From Pedobacter psychrophilus (GTDB taxonomy: Bacteria; Bacteroidota; Bacteroidia; Sphingobacteriales; Sphingobacteriaceae), in contig NZ_LWHJ01000032.1 in the NCBI RefSeq assembly GCF_001652725.1, forward strand, positions 92,158-156,157: a stretch of 64,000 nucleotides of DNA. The letters run 5' to 3'. Made by a program: the position numbers and the translations under genes. Shown piece by piece: positions 1 to 24,831 of the stretch (position 1 is its first letter; each line of letters opens with the position of its first letter). The notes below the pieces were generated by a model that did not search any database, was not told the origin of the DNA, and worked only from the letters and a program-made list of their open reading frames with translations.

Positions 1-347
1 TTTCTCGCATCCACTAAAATAATAGCTAAATCCGCATTTGAAGCACCAGTAACCATATTTCTGGTATACTGAATATGCCCTGGAGTATCTGCAATAATGA
101 ACTTTCTTTTTTCTGTTTGAAAGTATTTATAAGCAACATCAATCGTAATTCCTTGCTCACGTTCTGCCTTTAAACCATCCGTTAAAATGGCTAAATCAAC
201 CGTTCCGTCGTCATTTTTTCTGTTCGATTTTTGGATAGCTTCCAGTTGGTCGGCTAAAACAGAATCAGTATCGTACAAAAGCCTTCCAATCAAAGTGCTT
301 TTTCCATCATCCACACTTCCTGCGGTTAAAAATTTTAATATATCCAT
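1..347 (-). CDS. cysN: Sulfate adenylyltransferase large subunit CysN, N-terminal part (cut by window edge)
   Basis: Only the first 115 codons are inside the window; the gene continues beyond position 1. The product starts [18 protein letters not shown], the P-loop of a translation-factor-like GTPase, and later carries [13 protein letters not shown] (G3 motif). This is the GTPase subunit that, with CysD, makes adenylyl sulfate (APS) from sulfate and ATP in the cytoplasm. Its ATG overlaps the cysD stop codon by one base (TAATG), so the two are almost certainly translationally coupled and stoichiometric. A C-terminal APS-kinase fusion, seen in some CysN proteins, cannot be judged here. Confidence 0.95.
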
Positions 348-1237
348 TAAAAATATCCTCCTTTTTTACGGTCTTCCATGGCTGCTTCAGAAACTTTATC
401 ATCCATTCTAGCACCACGCTCACTTATTTTTGATTGCGAAATCTCCAAAATAATATCATCTATTTCTGTTTTTTCCGATTCTACAGCTGCAGTACAAGTC
501 ATATCACCAACGGTACGGAAACGCACACTTTTTGTATAGATTTTATCATCAGCATCCATATTTAAAAACTCATGAGCCGCCATCCAAACCCCATTTCGCT
601 CAATAACTTCACGATGATGAGAATAATAAATAGAAGGAATTTCTATATTTTCTCTTTTGATATAGTTCCAAACATCCAACTCCGTCCAGTTGCTAATCGG
701 GAAAACCCTTACATTTTCTCCTTTATGGATTTTTCCATTAAAGGTGTTCCAAAGTTCTGGACGTTGGCGCTTTGGATCCCATTGTCCAAATTCATCACGA
801 ACAGAAAATATCCTTTCTTTTGCCCTTGCTTTTTCCTCGTCTCTTCTTGCGCCGCCAATACAGGCATCAAACTGATTTTTTTCAATGACTTCTAAAAGAG
901 AAACAGTTTGCAAAGCATTTCTGCTGGCATTTTTACCTTTTTGCTCTATCGCTCTTCCACTATCAATAGCATCTTGTACATGCCCAATAATTAATTTCTC
1001 GCCAAGTTTTTGAACCAGTTGATCTCTAAATTCAATCACTTCAGGGAAATTATGGCCAGTATCAACATGTACCAACGGAAAAGGAAACTTTCCCGGACGA
1101 AAGGCTTTTTCTGCCAAACGAACCAATGTGATAGAATCTTTTCCTCCCGAAAAAAGCAAAGCTGGCTTCTCAAACTGTCCTGCTACCTCCCTTAAAATCG
1201 CTATGGCTTCCGCCTCTAGTTGATCTAAATAATCCAT
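347..1237 (-). CDS. cysD: Sulfate adenylyltransferase subunit 2, CysD
   Basis: The 296-residue protein is full length for CysD. It carries the PP-loop ATP pyrophosphatase motif SGGKDS at residues 30-35, the family hallmarks [16 protein letters not shown] and [18 protein letters not shown], and the C-terminal GGYF ending typical of CysD. It catalyses APS formation with the CysN GTPase. It is fifth in the sulfate assimilation operon, 133 bases downstream of the APS reductase gene and overlapping cysN by one base. The start ATG at 1237 gives the expected [13 protein letters not shown]-terminus. Confidence 0.97.
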
Positions 1238-1370: not shown

Positions 1371-2093
1371 TTAAGGTTTAAAAACTTCCTCATGTGCGCT
1401 GGTTTCATGTAATCCACACTCTTTTTTACTCGCATCTTCCCACCACCAGCGTCCTGCTCTAAAATCTTCGCCAGGTTGCACCGCTCTTGTGCAAGGTTGG
1501 CAACCAATACTTGGAAAGCCTTTGTCATGCAACGGATTATATGGCACATTTTTCTCTTTCACATAAGCCTTCACGTCTTCTAAAGTCCAGTTAAAAATAG
1601 GATGAACTTTTATCAATTGATGCGCTTCATCCCATTCTACCCAATCCATATCTTCACGGTTTGCAGATTGCTCTGCTCTAATTCCGGTAATCCAAACTTT
1701 TTGCCCAGCCAAAGCTCTATTTAAAGGCTCAACTTTTCTAATTCCACAACATTCTTTTCTATTCTCTACAGATTCATAAAAGCTACTTGGTCCTTTTTTA
1801 GTCACTATCGCTTCCAGCTTTTCTTTATCGGGATAAAAGGCATGAATTGGCTTTTTATACCTTTCTAAAGTACGGTTCCAAGTGTAATAAGTTTCTGTAA
1901 ACAACCTGCCGGTTTCTAAAGTGAAGACTTTGATGTTTAAATCGGCAGTAAAAATCATATCAGATAATACTTGGTCTTCCCATCCAAAACTGGTAGAAAA
2001 AATCAAATCTTCTTTAAAATATGAAACAATAAAAGCCAAAACCTCTTGAGGTGATTTATCTTTTAATGCGTCTTTTAATTGTTTTATATCCAT
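1371..2093 (-). CDS. cysH: Assimilatory adenylyl-sulfate (APS) reductase, CysH family
   Basis: The 240-residue protein belongs to the PAPS/APS reductase family (PP-loop fold), with STSFGWEDQ near residue 34 and ITGIRAEQSANR near 135. Two cysteine pairs are present: C115-C116 in KECCGIRK and C198-x2-C201 in GCQPC. This CC...CxxC pattern binds a [4Fe-4S] cluster and marks the enzyme as reducing APS directly rather than PAPS. Consistent with this, no separate APS kinase gene is seen in the visible operon. The catalytic Cys lies in KKECGLH near the C-terminus. Product: sulfite plus AMP, with thioredoxin as reductant. The gene sits between a dispersed repeat (2111-2204) and cysD. Confidence 0.95.
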   Translation of the reverse strand: MDIKQLKDALKDKSPQEVLAFIVSYFKEDLIFSTSFGWEDQVLSDMIFTADLNIKVFTLETGRLFTETYYTWNRTLERYKKPIHAFYPDKEKLEAIVTKKGPSSFYESVENRKECCGIRKVEPLNRALAGQKVWITGIRAEQSANREDMDWVEWDEAHQLIKVHPIFNWTLEDVKAYVKEKNVPYNPLHDKGFPSIGCQPCTRAVQPGEDFRAGRWWWEDASKKECGLHETSAHEEVFKP

Positions 2094-2110: not shown

Positions 2111-2204
2111 GGGCGTTTTAACACGCTATCCGCTATATCTTTTTTTGCTATTTGCTAAATGGTTAGTGCAAAAAAAGGATGCCACTTCTATCGTTAACGC
2201 AAAA
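2111..2204 (+). repeat. Dispersed structured repeat, family A, copy 1
   Basis: The element starts GGGCGTTTTAACACGC and ends ATCGTTAACGCAAAA. Its termini are complementary (GCGTT / AACGC), and internally ATCTTTTTTTGC pairs with GCAAAAAAAGGAT, giving a long hairpin. A nearly identical copy is at 18212-18307 and a diverged, inverted one at 24721-24831. This copy lies inside the sulfate operon, between the TSUP-fusion gene and cysH. Elements of this general form (GGGCGTT...AACGC) recur, to my recollection, in Sphingobacteriaceae intergenic regions. The function is unknown. Confidence 0.75.
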
Positions 2205-2227
2205 CCTTTTATCCTCAAGTATAATAA

Positions 2228-3745
2228 TTAAAAAGCCATTAAAAACTTACCAATGCTGCGCAAACTTACTAAAATAACAATGATCGAAACTGCTACCATA
2301 ATGGTTTTTGCTGATATTTTATTCGATATTCTTGCAGCGATTGGTGATGCAATTGCACTTCCCAAAACCAAACCAGCAACGGCGTACCAATGTAATCCGT
2401 TTAGCATCGTCACAAAAGTTAAAGAACTCATTAGCGCAATAAAAAAACGACTTAATTTTACAGTTCCTAAGGAGTAACGGGCATTTCTTCCTCCGGCAAT
2501 TAATGAAGACAAAACAATCGATCCCCAGCCGCCACCACCAACTGCGTCTATAAAACCTCCTGTAAAACCCAAAACACCTATTTTTTTAATTTTTGGACCA
2601 GCTTTGGCATTTTTTAATTTTAAAACGCCAGATTTTTTTAAAATCACGAAACCTAAAATTAAAGTATAAAGCGAAATTAAAGGTTTAGTATAATGTGCGT
2701 ATTCTTCTAATGATGATAATAAAAAAGCTCCTAAAACAGCTCCGATAATTCCGGGAATCAGCAATAGTTTTAATAATTTTTTGTTGATGTTTCCCATTCT
2801 ATAATGCATCCAACCGGCAATTCCATTACTTAAAATTTCTGAAATATGAACCGCTGTACTTGCAGAAGCGGGTGGAATTCCCATTGATAGAGAAAATGTG
2901 GTAGAGGTTACTCCATAAGACATTCCTATTGCTCCATCTATCATTGCGAAGATAAATCCTGCTATTAAAAACCAATAAAATTGTGGATTAACACCAGCAA
3001 CATAATTACGGAAAACAGGTTCTTCTTTCCATAATACATAAAAGATGATAGCCGCAAAAACCACCACAAAACTCCAAATGATATAACTTAAGGTTGCTGG
3101 CTTTAAATTTTTATCTGGTTGTTTTTCAGAAACTAAACTTGCAGTCGCCTGGTTTAACGCTTTTACTTTATCGCTAAAATCGCCTTTAAGGGTTAATCTT
3201 AATTTATTGATTTGTTCTAAAGTATCATCAATTTCATTAGGAATGTTTTCGTTTAAAACTTCTTTAATGCGTTTTGCAACCGTGGGCGATTTTCCGTTGG
3301 TTGAAATAGCGATTTTTAAATTTCCCTTTTTTACGATGGAACCTAAATAAAAATCACAAAGTTCTGGAGTATCTGCTACATTTAAAAGCAAGCCTTTTTC
3401 TTTTGCTATTTTTCTGATATATTCATGAAGTTCACGGTTATCAGTAGCTAAAATTACGAGTTCAATATCGTTTAAATCCTCATCCTGAAATTTGCGTTCT
3501 ATTATATTAACCGATGGATGGTGGATGACTAATTCCTTCAACTCCGGTAAAAAACGATCAGCAACTACATTTACTTTGGCTTTTGGAGAATTGCCCAATA
3601 AAGCACTTAATTTCTCTAAACCTACATTTCCACCACCAACTAATAAAGTTTGAAAGTTTTGTAGCTTTAAGAAAACGGGAAATAATTCGTTTCCATTTCC
3701 TTCATCTATGATTTTATCATCGTTATTCTGTGTCAACAAACTCAT
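2228..3745 (-). CDS. Precorrin-2 dehydrogenase (CysG N-terminal type) fused to a TSUP (TauE/SafE) transporter
   Basis: This 505-residue fusion has two parts. Residues about 20-215 match the NAD-dependent precorrin-2 dehydrogenase/sirohydrochlorin ferrochelatase module of CysG/Met8, with the Rossmann glycine motif LLVGGGNVGLEK near residue 35 and KIAISTNGKSPTVAKRIKE in the middle. Residues about 222-505 are hydrophobic, with roughly eight membrane segments, and match TSUP permeases (GAIGMSYGVTST and GGFIDAVGGGGWGSIV). The soluble half would complete siroheme synthesis for the adjacent sulfite reductase; the membrane half probably moves sulfate or sulfite. The start overlaps the 3' end of the methyltransferase gene by 23 bases. 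Confidence 0.9.
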   Translation of the reverse strand: MSLLTQNNDDKIIDEGNGNELFPVFLKLQNFQTLLVGGGNVGLEKLSALLGNSPKAKVNVVADRFLPELKELVIHHPSVNIIERKFQDEDLNDIELVILATDNRELHEYIRKIAKEKGLLLNVADTPELCDFYLGSIVKKGNLKIAISTNGKSPTVAKRIKEVLNENIPNEIDDTLEQINKLRLTLKGDFSDKVKALNQATASLVSEKQPDKNLKPATLSYIIWSFVVVFAAIIFYVLWKEEPVFRNYVAGVNPQFYWFLIAGFIFAMIDGAIGMSYGVTSTTFSLSMGIPPASASTAVHISEILSNGIAGWMHYRMGNINKKLLKLLLIPGIIGAVLGAFLLSSLEEYAHYTKPLISLYTLILGFVILKKSGVLKLKNAKAGPKIKKIGVLGFTGGFIDAVGGGGWGSIVLSSLIAGGRNARYSLGTVKLSRFFIALMSSLTFVTMLNGLHWYAVAGLVLGSAIASPIAARISNKISAKTIMVAVSIIVILVSLRSIGKFLMAF

Positions 3746-4490
3746 AAGATGATAAAATAGGTTGAAAAGTTGGATGCAGACTAACTACTTCTCCAATTAC
3801 GATTATCGCAGGAGCACCAATTTTGTTCTCCTCAATTTGTTCTACAATGGTATTCATTACTCCAACTGCAGCCTTTTCTTTTGGGGTCGAACCATTTTGT
3901 ATGATAGCAACAGGCAATCGGCCTAAGCCATTATTTTTATAAATCTCAACAATTTCTTTAATTTTATTTACGCCCATTAAAATTACAACCGTTGCTTTTG
4001 TTTTTACGGCAACCTTTAAATCGTTAGAGATTTCTCCGTTTGCTTTTGTACCGGTAATTACCCAAAAACTCTCGCTTAAACCACGATGTGTTAAAGGAAT
4101 GCCTTGCAAAGCAGGAACGGAAATTGAGCTAGAGATTCCAGGAATTACTTCTGTTTGGATGTTGTAAGAATGCGCAAAATCAATCTCTTCATAACCTCTT
4201 CCAAAAACGAAAGGGTCGCCACCTTTTAAACGGACAACGTATCCATATCTTAAAGCACTATCCACTAAAAGTTGGTTAATTTCTTGTTGTTTTAAAGAAT
4301 GTTGTCCAGCTCTTTTACCTACAAATATTTTGATGGAATTTTCTGGAGCCATTTCTAACAAGGCTTCATTTACCAAAGCATCGTACAATACAACCTCGGC
4401 TTTAGCCAAAGCTTTTGCACCTTTTATGCTAATTAATTCTGCATCGCCGGGACCGGCACCAATTAAAGTTATTTTAGGTTCTAGTACCAT
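3723..4490 (-). CDS. cobA: Uroporphyrinogen-III C-methyltransferase (SUMT)
   Basis: The 255-residue SAM-dependent tetrapyrrole methylase is full length for the single-domain SUMT/CobA enzyme. Visible signatures are LIGAGPGDAELISIKG at the N-terminus, VRLKGGDPFVFGRGYEE near residue 90 and GIPLTHRG near 130. It converts uroporphyrinogen III to precorrin-2, the substrate of the neighbouring fused dehydrogenase, so the two genes together supply siroheme to the sulfite reductase encoded one base upstream. Tight spacing on both sides argues for one operon. Confidence 0.95.
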   Translation of the reverse strand: MVLEPKITLIGAGPGDAELISIKGAKALAKAEVVLYDALVNEALLEMAPENSIKIFVGKRAGQHSLKQQEINQLLVDSALRYGYVVRLKGGDPFVFGRGYEEIDFAHSYNIQTEVIPGISSSISVPALQGIPLTHRGLSESFWVITGTKANGEISNDLKVAVKTKATVVILMGVNKIKEIVEIYKNNGLGRLPVAIIQNGSTPKEKAAVGVMNTIVEQIEENKIGAPAIIVIGEVVSLHPTFQPILSSYEFVDTE

Positions 4491-4491
4491 T

Positions 4492-6588
4492 TTATGCTAA
4501 TTCTTGGTTTGGCCTAAAAGCTTTTACCTTGTTTAAAAAATCATTTGCTTCTGCTAAATAAGCTTCAGCGAAAGCGGGAGAAGGCTCATTTTTATTGATT
4601 TGTAGCACTAAATCACTAAAACTTTTAATGCCAAACTCTTCAGCAAATTCTTCATCAAACTTGTTTATAACACCTGTTTGTGTACTTTGGTTAATGCCTT
4701 TATCTAATAATAATGCTTTTGCTCCGCTAACCATTGTGTTGTAAGTGTGATAAATTGCATCTGCCCAAGCTTTATTATCGTAAGCTTCATTAGCCCAACC
4801 AAATTTCTCTTCTGCTTCGTAAATTAATGTGGCTACTAAATCAATTACAACTCCGGCACATTCGCCCACACCAATTGCGGTAACAAAGGTTTCTTCATGT
4901 CCCCAATCCACAAATTCATCATCTTTAACATCCGACTGGTCTGCGATTGGTTTTAATAATTGATAGAAATAATCTTTCCCTAATTCATCGTAATAAGCAT
5001 GAAAATTTTGATAGAAATTACCTTTAATTTTATAATCATCCAAAATAGCTCTCAAAACGTGAGGTGCTCTTTTAGAGGGAACTTTTAAAACTTTATCAGC
5101 AGCCCTGCCAATACCATCGCCAACAATTCCTCCTCCTAATAAAACCTGAACAGAAGGCATTACTTTACCGTCAACTTTCATAGAACTTCCATGGAAACCA
5201 ATGTGGGCTAAACCATGTTGACCACAACTATTCATGCAGCCACTAATTTTTATTTTTATTTCTTTGTCTGCTACAAAATCAGGATATTCCTCGTAGATAA
5301 CTGATTCTAAAACTCTTGATAGTTCCATAGAATTAGAAATTCCCAAATTACAAGTATCTGTTCCGGGGCAAGTGGTTACATCGGCAACGCCATCAAAACC
5401 TGGTGCAGCTAATTTTAATTCATCCAAAGCCAAGAAAAGATTTGGTAAAACTTCTGGTCTAACAAACTTCAATAGTAAACCTTGGTTAATAGTTATCCTG
5501 ATTTCATCAGCAACCAAATCTTTAATAGCAGCCACAAAAGCTCTAGCCTGATTAGTTGGAATATCTCCGGTTTGCACTTTTATATAAACACCAAAAAAAC
5601 CAGCTTGCTTTTGCTCAAAAATATTAGTTGCTTTCCATAAATCATAAGCCAATTGCTTTTCTTTAGGAATGGCTAAAGTTTCAACTTTAATTTCTGAAGC
5701 TTGAGGTTGAATAATTGAATCACGATTGATTTTAAATGTTTTTGATTTGTTGGCAATTTGTTCCTCGGCAACCAATCTAATCACTTCTTCAATCCCCAAC
5801 TTGTTCACTAAAAACTTTAACCGAGCTTTATTTCTGTTGTTTCTTTCACCGTATCGGTCAAAAACCCTTAACACAGATTCTGAAAATGGAATTATTAAAT
5901 CTTCATGCAAAAATTCATGAACAACATGTGCTAATGAAGGCTGCGCTCCCAAACCACCGCCTAAAACAACCTTAAATCCTCTCACTTCTTCACCGTTTTC
6001 TTGTTTGATTTTTGGGATAAAACCTAAATCATGAATAAAAGAAAAAGCTGTATCTGCTTCGCTAGAAGAAAAAGCAATTTTAATTTTTCTGCCCATTTCT
6101 TGGCAGATTGGATTTCTTAAAAAATACTCGAAAAAAGCCTGAGCATAAGGCGAAACATCAAAGGGTTCTGTAGGGTCAATTCCTGCAGTTGGGGAAGCGG
6201 TTACGTTTCTTACGGTATTGCCGCAAGCTTCGCGTAAAGTAATATCATCTTTTTCAAGCTCCGACCAAAGTTGAGGTGTTCTATCTAAACTTACGTAATG
6301 GATTTGTATATCCTGACGGGTAGTTAAATGCAGATTTGAAGATGCATATTCATCAGAAACGTCAGCTATTTTAAGGATTTGCTTAAAAGTTATTTTTCCA
6401 TAAGGCAATTTAATACGCACCATTTGAACCCCAGCCTGGCGTTGGCCATAAACGCCACGAGCCAAACGTAGACTTCTAAACTTTTCTTCGTGGATTTTAC
6501 CTTCATGAAAAGCCCTAATCTTTTTTTCAAGATCAATGATATCTTGCTCTACTAATGGATTTTCTAATTCTGTTCTAAAACTTTGCAT
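4492..6588 (-). CDS. Siroheme [4Fe-4S] sulfite/nitrite reductase with C-terminal HEPN-like domain
   Basis: The 698-residue cytoplasmic protein contains the two-repeat nitrite/sulfite reductase core. The siroheme-cluster ligands are TCPGTDTC (about C407 and C413) and GCMNSC (about C451 and C455). It should reduce sulfite to sulfide in this sulfate-assimilation context; ferredoxin-dependent nitrite reductase is the alternative by homology. Residues about 560-690 are beyond the usual core and helical (FVTAIGVGECAGVV, then a helical repeat with YNTMVSGAKALLLDKG), resembling HEPN domains. It is the first structural gene of the operon; its ATG lies only 12 bases after the U-tract of the attenuator terminator. 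Confidence 0.92.
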   Translation of the reverse strand: MQSFRTELENPLVEQDIIDLEKKIRAFHEGKIHEEKFRSLRLARGVYGQRQAGVQMVRIKLPYGKITFKQILKIADVSDEYASSNLHLTTRQDIQIHYVSLDRTPQLWSELEKDDITLREACGNTVRNVTASPTAGIDPTEPFDVSPYAQAFFEYFLRNPICQEMGRKIKIAFSSSEADTAFSFIHDLGFIPKIKQENGEEVRGFKVVLGGGLGAQPSLAHVVHEFLHEDLIIPFSESVLRVFDRYGERNNRNKARLKFLVNKLGIEEVIRLVAEEQIANKSKTFKINRDSIIQPQASEIKVETLAIPKEKQLAYDLWKATNIFEQKQAGFFGVYIKVQTGDIPTNQARAFVAAIKDLVADEIRITINQGLLLKFVRPEVLPNLFLALDELKLAAPGFDGVADVTTCPGTDTCNLGISNSMELSRVLESVIYEEYPDFVADKEIKIKISGCMNSCGQHGLAHIGFHGSSMKVDGKVMPSVQVLLGGGIVGDGIGRAADKVLKVPSKRAPHVLRAILDDYKIKGNFYQNFHAYYDELGKDYFYQLLKPIADQSDVKDDEFVDWGHEETFVTAIGVGECAGVVIDLVATLIYEAEEKFGWANEAYDNKAWADAIYHTYNTMVSGAKALLLDKGINQSTQTGVINKFDEEFAEEFGIKSFSDLVLQINKNEPSPAFAEAYLAEANDFLNKVKAFRPNQELA

Positions 6589-6600
6589 ACATTTTTAATA

Positions 6601-6628
6601 AAAAAACCCCTTCTAAATTTTGAAGAGG
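6601..6628 (-). terminator. Intrinsic terminator immediately upstream of the sulfite reductase gene
   Basis: Read on the minus strand, CCTCTTC (6628-6622) pairs with GAAGGGG (6613-6607) across an 8-base loop, giving 7 bp with one G-U, followed by seven U. It sits between the leader ORF stop (6655) and the sulfite reductase ATG (6588), where it can only act as an attenuator. The 5' arm (CUCUUC) can alternatively pair with GGGGAG at 6676-6671 inside the leader ORF, a plausible antiterminator. Confidence 0.85.
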
Positions 6629-6654
6629 CTTAATTAACACACATTAAAATAGGT

Positions 6655-6747
6655 TTATTTTGGTGCAACACTCCCCGTATTATCTTTGTTTAACTGCATA
6701 CAGCAGCAACTTTTTGTTTTGCTTTTAAATGAAAATGAAATTCTCAT
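6655..6747 (-). CDS. Cysteine-rich leader peptide of the sulfate assimilation operon (30 aa)
   Basis: This short ORF encodes a 30-residue peptide beginning MRISFSFKSKTKS, then Cys-Cys-Cys at residues 14-16 (TGC TGC TGT, 6708-6700), and ending MQLNKDNTGSVAPK. Tandem codons for the end product of the pathway, followed by a terminator directly before the first structural gene, are the classic layout of ribosome-mediated attenuation as in trp or his leaders. Low charged Cys-tRNA would stall the ribosome at 6708-6700, leaving GGGGAG (6676-6671) free to capture the terminator arm. The ATG is only four bases after a TATATTTG promoter box, so translation may be leaderless. An alternative start at codon 17 would exclude the Cys run. 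Confidence 0.75.
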   Translation of the reverse strand: MRISFSFKSKTKSCCCMQLNKDNTGSVAPK

Positions 6748-6751
6748 GCGA

Positions 6752-6759
6752 CAAATATA
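6752..6759 (-). promoter_or_regulatory. Candidate -7 promoter box TATATTTG for the cys operon
   Basis: On the minus strand TATATTTG (6759-6752) matches the Bacteroidota -7 consensus TAnnTTTG. It is followed by TCGC and then the leader-peptide ATG. No convincing TTTG -33 element is seen 19-21 bases upstream, which may indicate an activator-dependent promoter. The expected transcription start falls at or next to the ATG. Confidence 0.5.
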
Positions 6760-6871
6760 TATAAAGTCTATGTATTTAGTAGATTTAATTTAAAAAAGTT
6801 TAAAAAAGATATAATCAATTGTTATTTACAATATTAATGAGGTTTTATTGAGTGAAATAATATTTAAATAT

Positions 6872-18211: not shown

Positions 18212-18307
18212 GGGCGTTTTAACACGCTATCCACTATATCTTTTTTGCCAATGTGCATAGTGGTTAATTGCAAAAAAGGATGCCGTTTCTATCGTTAACG
18301 CAAAAAA
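18212..18307 (+). repeat. Dispersed structured repeat, family A, copy 2
   Basis: Almost identical to 2111-2204: begins GGGCGTTTTAACACGC, contains CTATATCTTTTTTGC and TTGCAAAAAAGGATGCC, ends ATCGTTAACGCAAAAAA. It lies between two convergent genes (16465-18168 and 18396-20270). Differences from copy 1 fall mostly in the loop, which supports a conserved hairpin. Confidence 0.75.
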
Positions 18308-24720: not shown

Positions 24721-24831
24721 GTTTTTTGCGTTAGGGATTACAGCGGTATACTTTTTTTCTTTTTCTGAAAAAGAGATTTAGCGGAAAGCCCGACATCATT
24801 TGCCCAATTAGGCAAATGATGTAACGCCCAA
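24721..24831 (-). repeat. Dispersed structured repeat, family A, copy 3 (inverted, diverged)
   Basis: On the minus strand it begins GGGCGTTACATCATTTG and ends TAATCCCTAACGCAAAAAAC, keeping the GCGTT/AACGC ends and the CCGCTAAATCTCTTTTTC core. An added perfect 12-bp hairpin, ACATCATTTGCC / GGCAAATGATGT, replaces the loop seen in copies 1 and 2. It lies between convergent genes, where it could act as a bidirectional transcript boundary. Confidence 0.7.

Follow-up and report, generated by a model that had tools for sequence, protein, structure and literature searches.

Positions 6759-6600 on the minus strand of the window, i.e., the whole stretch of 64,000 nucleotides of Pedobacter psychrophilus DNA that was analysed, are predicted to form a cysteine-responsive, ribosome-mediated transcription attenuator of the sulfate-assimilation operon, a reading that we hold at a probability of about 0.85. 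Directly shown are the elements in the sequence, the fact that they recur in relatives, and the switch as calculated. The trp and his attenuators of enterobacteria are characterized by tandem product codons in a leader peptide, a terminator before the first gene and a ribosome whose position frees an alternative pairing; the leader in the window resembles them by its consecutive end-product codons, its intrinsic terminator and a mutually exclusive pairing found by calculation, and differs from them in being predicted leaderless, in lacking a protecting first hairpin, in its cysteine codons and in its occurrence in Bacteroidota. It would work like the trp form but is laid out otherwise.

The leader and the operon behind it

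The leader comprises a promoter box, a short open reading frame (ORF) with three consecutive cysteine codons and a hairpin with a U-run, and is followed by genes in the same orientation:

6759-6752, minus: TATATTTG, -7 box (TAnnTTTG) of the predicted promoter, consensus and position as reported in PMC9723704
6747-6655, minus: leader ORF of 30 codons from the ATG at 6747, encoding MRISFSFKSKTKSCCCMQLNKDNTGSVAPK, predicted leaderless
6708-6700, minus: TGC TGC TGT, codons 14-16, tandem Cys codons and predicted sensor
6676-6671, minus: GGGGAG inside the leader ORF
6676-6667, minus: GGGGAGTGTT, predicted 5' strand of the antiterminator
6657-6655, minus: TAA stop codon of the leader ORF
6631-6622, minus: AAGCCTCTTC, terminator 5' arm, which doubles as the 3' strand of the predicted antiterminator
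6613-6604, minus: GAAGGGGTTT, 3' arm of the terminator
to 6600, minus: U-run after the terminator 3' arm
6588-4492, minus: sulfite reductase of 698 residues, first gene of the operon, with two NIR_SIR and two ferredoxin-like half domains (Pfam)
3723..4490, minus: tetrapyrrole methylase (PF00590), likely the uroporphyrinogen-III methyltransferase for sirohaem
2228..3745, minus: NAD-binding part of sirohaem synthase fused to a TauE/SafE sulfite exporter (domain search)
1371..2093, minus: PAPS/APS reductase domain protein, CysH-like (domain search)
347..1237, minus: PAPS_reduct-domain protein (domain search), likely the sulfate adenylyltransferase subunit CysD

The hairpin segment of the predicted intrinsic terminator, between the leader and the first gene, has a calculated folding energy of -12.3 kcal/mol. 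An earlier note on this DNA had proposed the leader ORF, the Cys triplet and the GGGGAG element, all of which are present where it placed them; the terminator that it set at 6628-6601 is the core of the hairpin and U-run at 6631-6600, ahead of the ATG at 6588. No Rfam family, T-box or riboswitch included, matches positions 6600-6760 at gathering score.

With a tetrapyrrole methylase, a sirohaem-synthase/TauE fusion and two PAPS-reductase-domain proteins downstream of the sulfite reductase, the operon is thus one of sulfate assimilation. The C-terminal stretch of the sulfite reductase (4492-6588) resembles a HEPN domain at 21.9 bits, against a Pfam cut-off of 22. Three copies of the Flavo-1 RNA (RF01705) are found in the window, at 2115-2205 (minus), 18216-18306 (minus) and 24723-24799 (plus); the copy at 2115-2205 is internal to the sulfate operon, with the TauE/sirohaem gene on one side and the CysH-like gene on the other. 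In the same genome, the 330 nt checked upstream of cysE-cysK, cysS and a second cysK/cbs-like gene hold no such leader.

A scan of both strands of the 64-kb window for a promoter box followed by an ATG ORF of 8-45 codons and a terminator, outside long ORFs, returned two places, of which the sulfate-operon leader is the only one with a gene downstream. The other candidate, with two Cys-Cys pairs at 36224-36141 on the minus strand, was rejected: its hairpin adjoins genes for tRNA-Met and tRNA-Glu, of which it is most likely the terminator, and no gene lies close behind on the strand. These two tRNA genes, in the segment 35850-37497, are followed by a protein of 405 residues whose sequence reads like a tyrosine recombinase.

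Recurrence in the Sphingobacteriaceae and in a second family

Of 201 genomes sampled from the family, 180 have the sulfite reductase gene, the genome of the window being one of them. A named collection contains 581 matching stretches, of which the best 80 were used; among these best 80 of 581, the nearest named relative of the gene is in Pedobacter cryophilus (Sphingobacteriaceae, Bacteroidota), at 81% identity. The upstream set was made of the best 80 of 581, 30 family loci and 40 upstreams picked by genus, not at random; its 151 entries, window included, were reduced to 134 distinct ones by dropping duplicates, judged by identity over a final 300 nt made up of 240 upstream and 60 in the gene (L134 was dropped as a duplicate), and these 134 cover part of the genera of the family. 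A terminator was called where a hairpin with a U-run folds at -9 kcal/mol or lower within the final 110 nt, and a leader as an ATG ORF with Cys at most 45 nt from the promoter box. The ORF of L023, for which the longest-ORF rule picks a wrong frame, was set by hand for the analyses of composition, frame, pairing and codon scan, and the class counts (92 of 105) keep the longest-ORF choice.

A terminator is found in 105 of the 134 distinct family upstreams, and a short Cys ORF lies near the box in 92 of these 105, with Cys-Cys in 66; the other classes are Cys-x-Cys, Cys-Met or Met-Cys (15), other Cys (11), an ORF without Cys (1) and no ORF (12). The 29 upstreams without terminator include four with a Cys ORF and none with Cys-Cys, and the association between terminator and Cys ORF across the 134 is strong (Fisher p 9e-14). 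Dinucleotide shuffles of the leader region yield Cys-Cys in 1.5% and any Cys ORF in 29% of cases. When the set is thinned at identity cut-offs of 65-80%, the association persists, with p from 3e-5 to 2e-11; at 75%, a Cys ORF is found in 40 of 47 upstreams with a terminator versus 3 of 25 without. Thinning at 60% leaves just 14 groups (3/4 versus 0/10), because AT-rich unrelated pairs score near 60%. Tandem codons for the pathway product with a terminator behind them, which the earlier note had given as the mark of ribosome-mediated attenuation, recur in the relatives of the window, and so does the Cys run whose conservation across the Sphingobacteriaceae it had proposed to check: the Cys codons are kept while the rest of the peptide varies. 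Cys leaders with a terminator are absent from the loci of two genera, g16 (5 loci) and g17 (7 loci).

The leader peptides of the family, which range from 10 to 31 residues in the 92 leaders, have the Cys block in common and little else apart from Cys and Met. Cysteine makes up 12.3% of their residues, versus 4.3% in shuffles, and internal methionine, often beside the Cys block, 8.9% versus 3.3%; the 92 leaders were selected for Cys content, not for Met. As Met is enriched too, the signal may not be cysteine alone, and the leaders may sense methionine as well. Within the 92 ORFs, TGYTGY occurs 92 times in the frame of the ATG and nine times in the other two frames, and both cysteine codons are in use (146 TGT, 83 TGC).

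Translation initiation in Bacteroidota is not based on Shine-Dalgarno sequences. The gap between box and ATG is 4 nt in the window and exactly 4 nt in 58 of the 92 leaders, window included; as the promoter box is reported at -12 to -5 in Flavobacterium psychrophilum (PMC9723704), such a gap places +1 on the A of the AUG. The mRNA of the window leader is thus likely leaderless, starting at its own AUG or within 1-2 bases of it, and the leaderless translation that had been considered possible from the window becomes a prediction for much of the set. Leaderless mRNAs are put at 5.5% in F. psychrophilum (PMC9723704), and 5' UTRs shorter than 10 nt at 3.7% in B. thetaiotaomicron (PMC7366714).

The genus of the window itself is divided. 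Its 16 distinct loci (L001, L002, L081-L083, L085-L088 and L090-L096) comprise eight with an ATG Cys ORF near the box, three of them with Cys-Cys (L001, L081 and L091), the leader of L082 reading Cys-Gly-Cys, and eight without such an ORF near the box (L002, L085, L086, L087, L088, L092, L095 and L096). Seven of the latter eight keep a detected hairpin, P. puniceum and its near kin (L002, L085-L087) among them; either the switch decays there or another signal is used. The leader of L095 departs from that of L091 in the length of one T run (7-8 T): a single T decides whether the Cys frame is open or broken, and assembly error, decay or slippage may lie behind it.

Outside the family, 40 upstreams drawn from the 55 well-matched places listed gave one Cys-Cys leader with a terminator beside the gene, L188, which belongs to a Bacteroidia family designated f5, whose many genera and large genomes might, as a guess, point to Chitinophagaceae. 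The sulfite reductase is matched in 29 of 80 f5 genomes searched; there are 26 near-full-length loci, of which one (L213) has no upstream DNA, so that 25 were assessed. An ATG ORF with 3 to 9 consecutive Cys codons is found in 21 of the 25, nine consecutive Cys codons being reached in L204 and L205. In 11 of the 25 (L191, L197, L200, L203-L207 and L209-L211), two poly-Cys ORFs stand in tandem upstream of the sulfite reductase, each with its own terminator. Only 2 of 29 f5 leaders have a TAnnTTTG box in the 80 nt that precede their ATG, and because of this rarity no leaderless start is claimed for f5. The sampled loci of a further family, f4 (by inference Flavobacteriaceae), showed no Cys-Cys leader with a terminator adjoining the sulfite reductase. 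In L153, L162, L166 and L189, Cys-Cys ORFs accompanied by a hairpin lie over 1 kb ahead of the sulfite reductase; having no promoter box, they were set aside, and those of L162, L166 and L189 fall inside long ORFs.

The calculated switch and its alternatives

In the proposed mechanism, transcription would start at the leader AUG or within a base or two of it, and there would be no 5' UTR ahead of the translated leader. With Cys-tRNA scarce, the ribosome would stall at codons 14-16; the stall would let GGGGAG...GUU (6676-6667) pair with the terminator 5' arm (6631-6622), no terminator would form and the operon would be read. With ample Cys-tRNA, the ribosome would run to the stop codon and strip the GGGGAG strand away, whereupon the terminator would fold. 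The transcription start, the stalling, the termination and the response to cysteine are what we infer here.

The competition between the two structures was followed by folding calculation, the measure being the pairing of the terminator 5' arm elsewhere just when its loop is made. The modelled ribosome covers the RNA as far as 12 nt from the beginning of the A-site codon, and was placed either at the stall position, i.e., the first Cys of the longest run, or on the stop codon. In the window, the 5' arm is sequestered at 0.79 with the ribosome at the Cys stall and at 0.15 with the ribosome at the stop. The same direction prevails among the 92 leaders, where mean pairing of the arm is 0.66 at the stall and 0.33 at the stop; it falls by more than 0.02 from stall to stop in 88 of the 92 and moves the opposite way in one. 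The mean difference of 0.33 compares with 0.09 in shuffled leaders (20 replicates, largest 0.118). Among 14 loci grouped by hand around the window, the eight with a Cys ORF average 0.58 versus 0.28, and the difference exceeds 0.1 in five of these eight. In f5, 31 leaders from 20 of the 21 loci entered the calculation, L195 standing outside; a terminator is in reach of 29 of the 31, all 29 testable leaders give a higher value at the stall than at the stop (0.72 versus 0.32), and the difference of 0.41 compares with 0.10 in shuffles (largest of 20 replicates 0.14).

When the stalled ribosome is moved codon by codon along the window leader, the value stays at 0.79 as far as codon 20 and drops to 0.65 at codon 21, and from codon 22 (0.07) the antiterminator is lost; across the 92 leaders, the drop in 5' arm pairing starts 3-4 codons past the first Cys. 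In trp-type leaders, a protecting 1:2 hairpin makes the untranslated leader terminate. The 5' arm of the window leader is sequestered at 0.79 when no ribosome is present, the same value as with the stalled ribosome (mean of the 92 leaders, 0.54); as the ribosome-free leader forms the antiterminator, there is no protecting hairpin of the trp type. By this calculation, a leader that is not translated would permit read-through, so that translation itself would switch the operon off.

The antiterminator of the window is the pairing GGGGAG:CUCUUC extended by GUU:AGC. When terminator arms are permuted among leaders, the pairing becomes weaker (observed -990 versus -864, sd 22.6, 0 of 2000 permutations), a difference to which relatedness contributes; in 62 of 92 leaders, pairing with the own arm is stronger than the average over swapped arms. 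In tests of single leaders, only 17 of the 92 have an antiterminator duplex stronger than in shuffles at p<0.05, with p 0.09 for the window. Pair counts were made on three sets, of 31 Mucilaginibacter-like, 12 Pedobacter and 6 loci, with a 23-locus set and the group of the window standing outside. The 31 Mucilaginibacter-like loci are 75.2% paired, versus 25-41% when the strands are slid; their covariation score is reached by 10 of 500 shuffles and their number of double-changed pairs by 461 of 500, and one pair is present as 15 G-C and 5 A-U. The 12 Pedobacter loci are 90.6% paired versus 25-42% when slid; they show no double-changed pair and are not above their shuffles. The 6-locus set is 73.6% paired versus 43-68%, on an alignment that misaligns the stem. 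Covariation support for the antiterminator is modest. The competing pairing of GGGGAG with CUCUUC, which the earlier note had drawn from the letters alone, is recovered by calculation in a longer form, and so is the behaviour it had ascribed to the switch, with a Cys stall favouring the antiterminator and a ribosome at the stop codon freeing the terminator, in 88 of the 92 leaders and in the window among them; of the conservation with compensatory changes that it had proposed to look for, the Cys run and the terminator recur in relatives, and the compensatory changes are modestly shown at most.

A hairpin before the first gene could also be constitutive, or could answer a protein or a small molecule, with the Cys ORF being incidental. 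The seven own-genus loci and 13 of the 105 family upstreams that keep the hairpin without an ATG Cys ORF are what would be expected from such an arrangement; it is nevertheless improbable given that a Cys ORF accompanies the terminator in 92 of 105 upstreams while Cys-Cys is found in none of the 29 without one, that the calculated difference between stall and stop beats shuffles in two families, and that no Rfam family matches here at gathering score. Still less probable is control of the operon at the level of translation, by coupling or reinitiation, or through Rho, in place of the intrinsic terminator. There are precedents, as the actinobacterial cys leaders are described as having no obvious terminators, with Rho proposed to act (PMC1262725), and the leaderless polycysteine ORFs of mycobacteria respond to cysteine (Canestrari et al. 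2020, cited in PMC9031893); here, however, a hairpin with a U-run follows the leader in 92 family loci and 29 of 31 f5 leaders, and the competing pairing engages the very arm of that terminator.

Small Cys-rich peptides are able to bind metals, and the leader might encode a small functional protein of this sort, e.g., a metal- or thiol-binding peptide that merely precedes the operon. A peptide kept for such a function fits poorly with leaders that share little beyond Cys and Met and vary from 10 to 31 residues, and we give this idea very little credence. The cysteine-responsive attenuator stays the preferred reading.

Known systems, a possible second layer of control and significance

Short ORFs with runs of Cys codons before a cys operon are known from mycobacteria and other actinobacteria, and the mycobacterial ones are leaderless and respond to cysteine (Canestrari et al. 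2020, cited in PMC9031893 and PMC13236596). The window shares the short ORF with a run of Cys codons in front of such an operon, but, unlike the actinobacterial leaders as portrayed in PMC1262725, it has a predicted intrinsic terminator and a competing helix; the likeness is one of layout, and no sequence relation is claimed. In comparison, the uORFC-8-2 motif described before cysS in Rhodobacterales (PMC8632094) has two Cys codons in a row, at about positions 14-15, and a terminator whose stem is followed by a U-run, and the window has its tandem Cys codons at similar positions and likewise a terminator with a U-run. The motif, as described there, is alphaproteobacterial, controls cysteinyl-tRNA synthetase and carries its Cys codons within a stem; the cysS gene of the window genome is without such a leader. 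Closer in phylogeny, F. psychrophilum is reported to show "strong clues" of leader-peptide attenuation, with short peptides before amino-acid biosynthesis operons (PMC9723704); it belongs to the same phylum as the window, and the suspected cases named in the portion of that paper at hand include no cysteine or sulfite one. Hints of leader peptides in Bacteroidota are given in PMC9723704 and PMC7366714, and leader genes in general are treated in PMC4833913. The earlier note knew of no such system in Bacteroidota, and a literature search whose scope left most subscription papers outside likewise found no cysteine attenuator there.

The nearest upstream gene belongs to the Rrf2 family in 5 of 10 attenuator-less loci inspected (L013, L019, L020, L061 and L071; PF02082 confirmed by Pfam in L013, L019 and L071), and an Rrf2-like gene, by resemblance, lies upstream of three f4 operons. 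This prompted the idea that attenuator and Rrf2-family regulator replace each other, which was rejected as relatives of the regulator occur near loci with and without a terminator: among the loci L001-L110 with at least 800 nt of upstream DNA, one is found at most 1.5 kb upstream in 48 of 88 loci with a terminator and 10 of 14 without, or 58 of 102 overall. In the window genome, the best relative of the Rrf2-type gene (68% identity) is on another contig. The attenuator and the Rrf2-family regulator may act in layers, the regulator providing a second layer of control.

The kind of attenuator is known; what is new is the predicted leaderless, terminator-bearing form without protecting hairpin, frequent in the family of the window, together with the poly-Cys tandem form of the other. 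On balance, we favour the view that at least two families of Bacteroidota run sulfate assimilation by an undescribed class of terminator-bearing cysteine attenuators, which in the family of the window would take a leaderless two-state form without protecting hairpin and in the other that of poly-Cys leaders (up to nine Cys) stacked two deep, as a two-stage cysteine gate before the sulfite reductase. Leaderless translation of a leader peptide, combined with an intrinsic terminator behind it, would make a compact two-state switch, and the tandem poly-Cys form of f5 offers a natural test of whether stacked attenuators sharpen the response. If the prediction is true, Bacteroidota, in which attenuation has been just hinted at in the reports cited above, would have a concrete cysteine-sensing switch for a central pathway.
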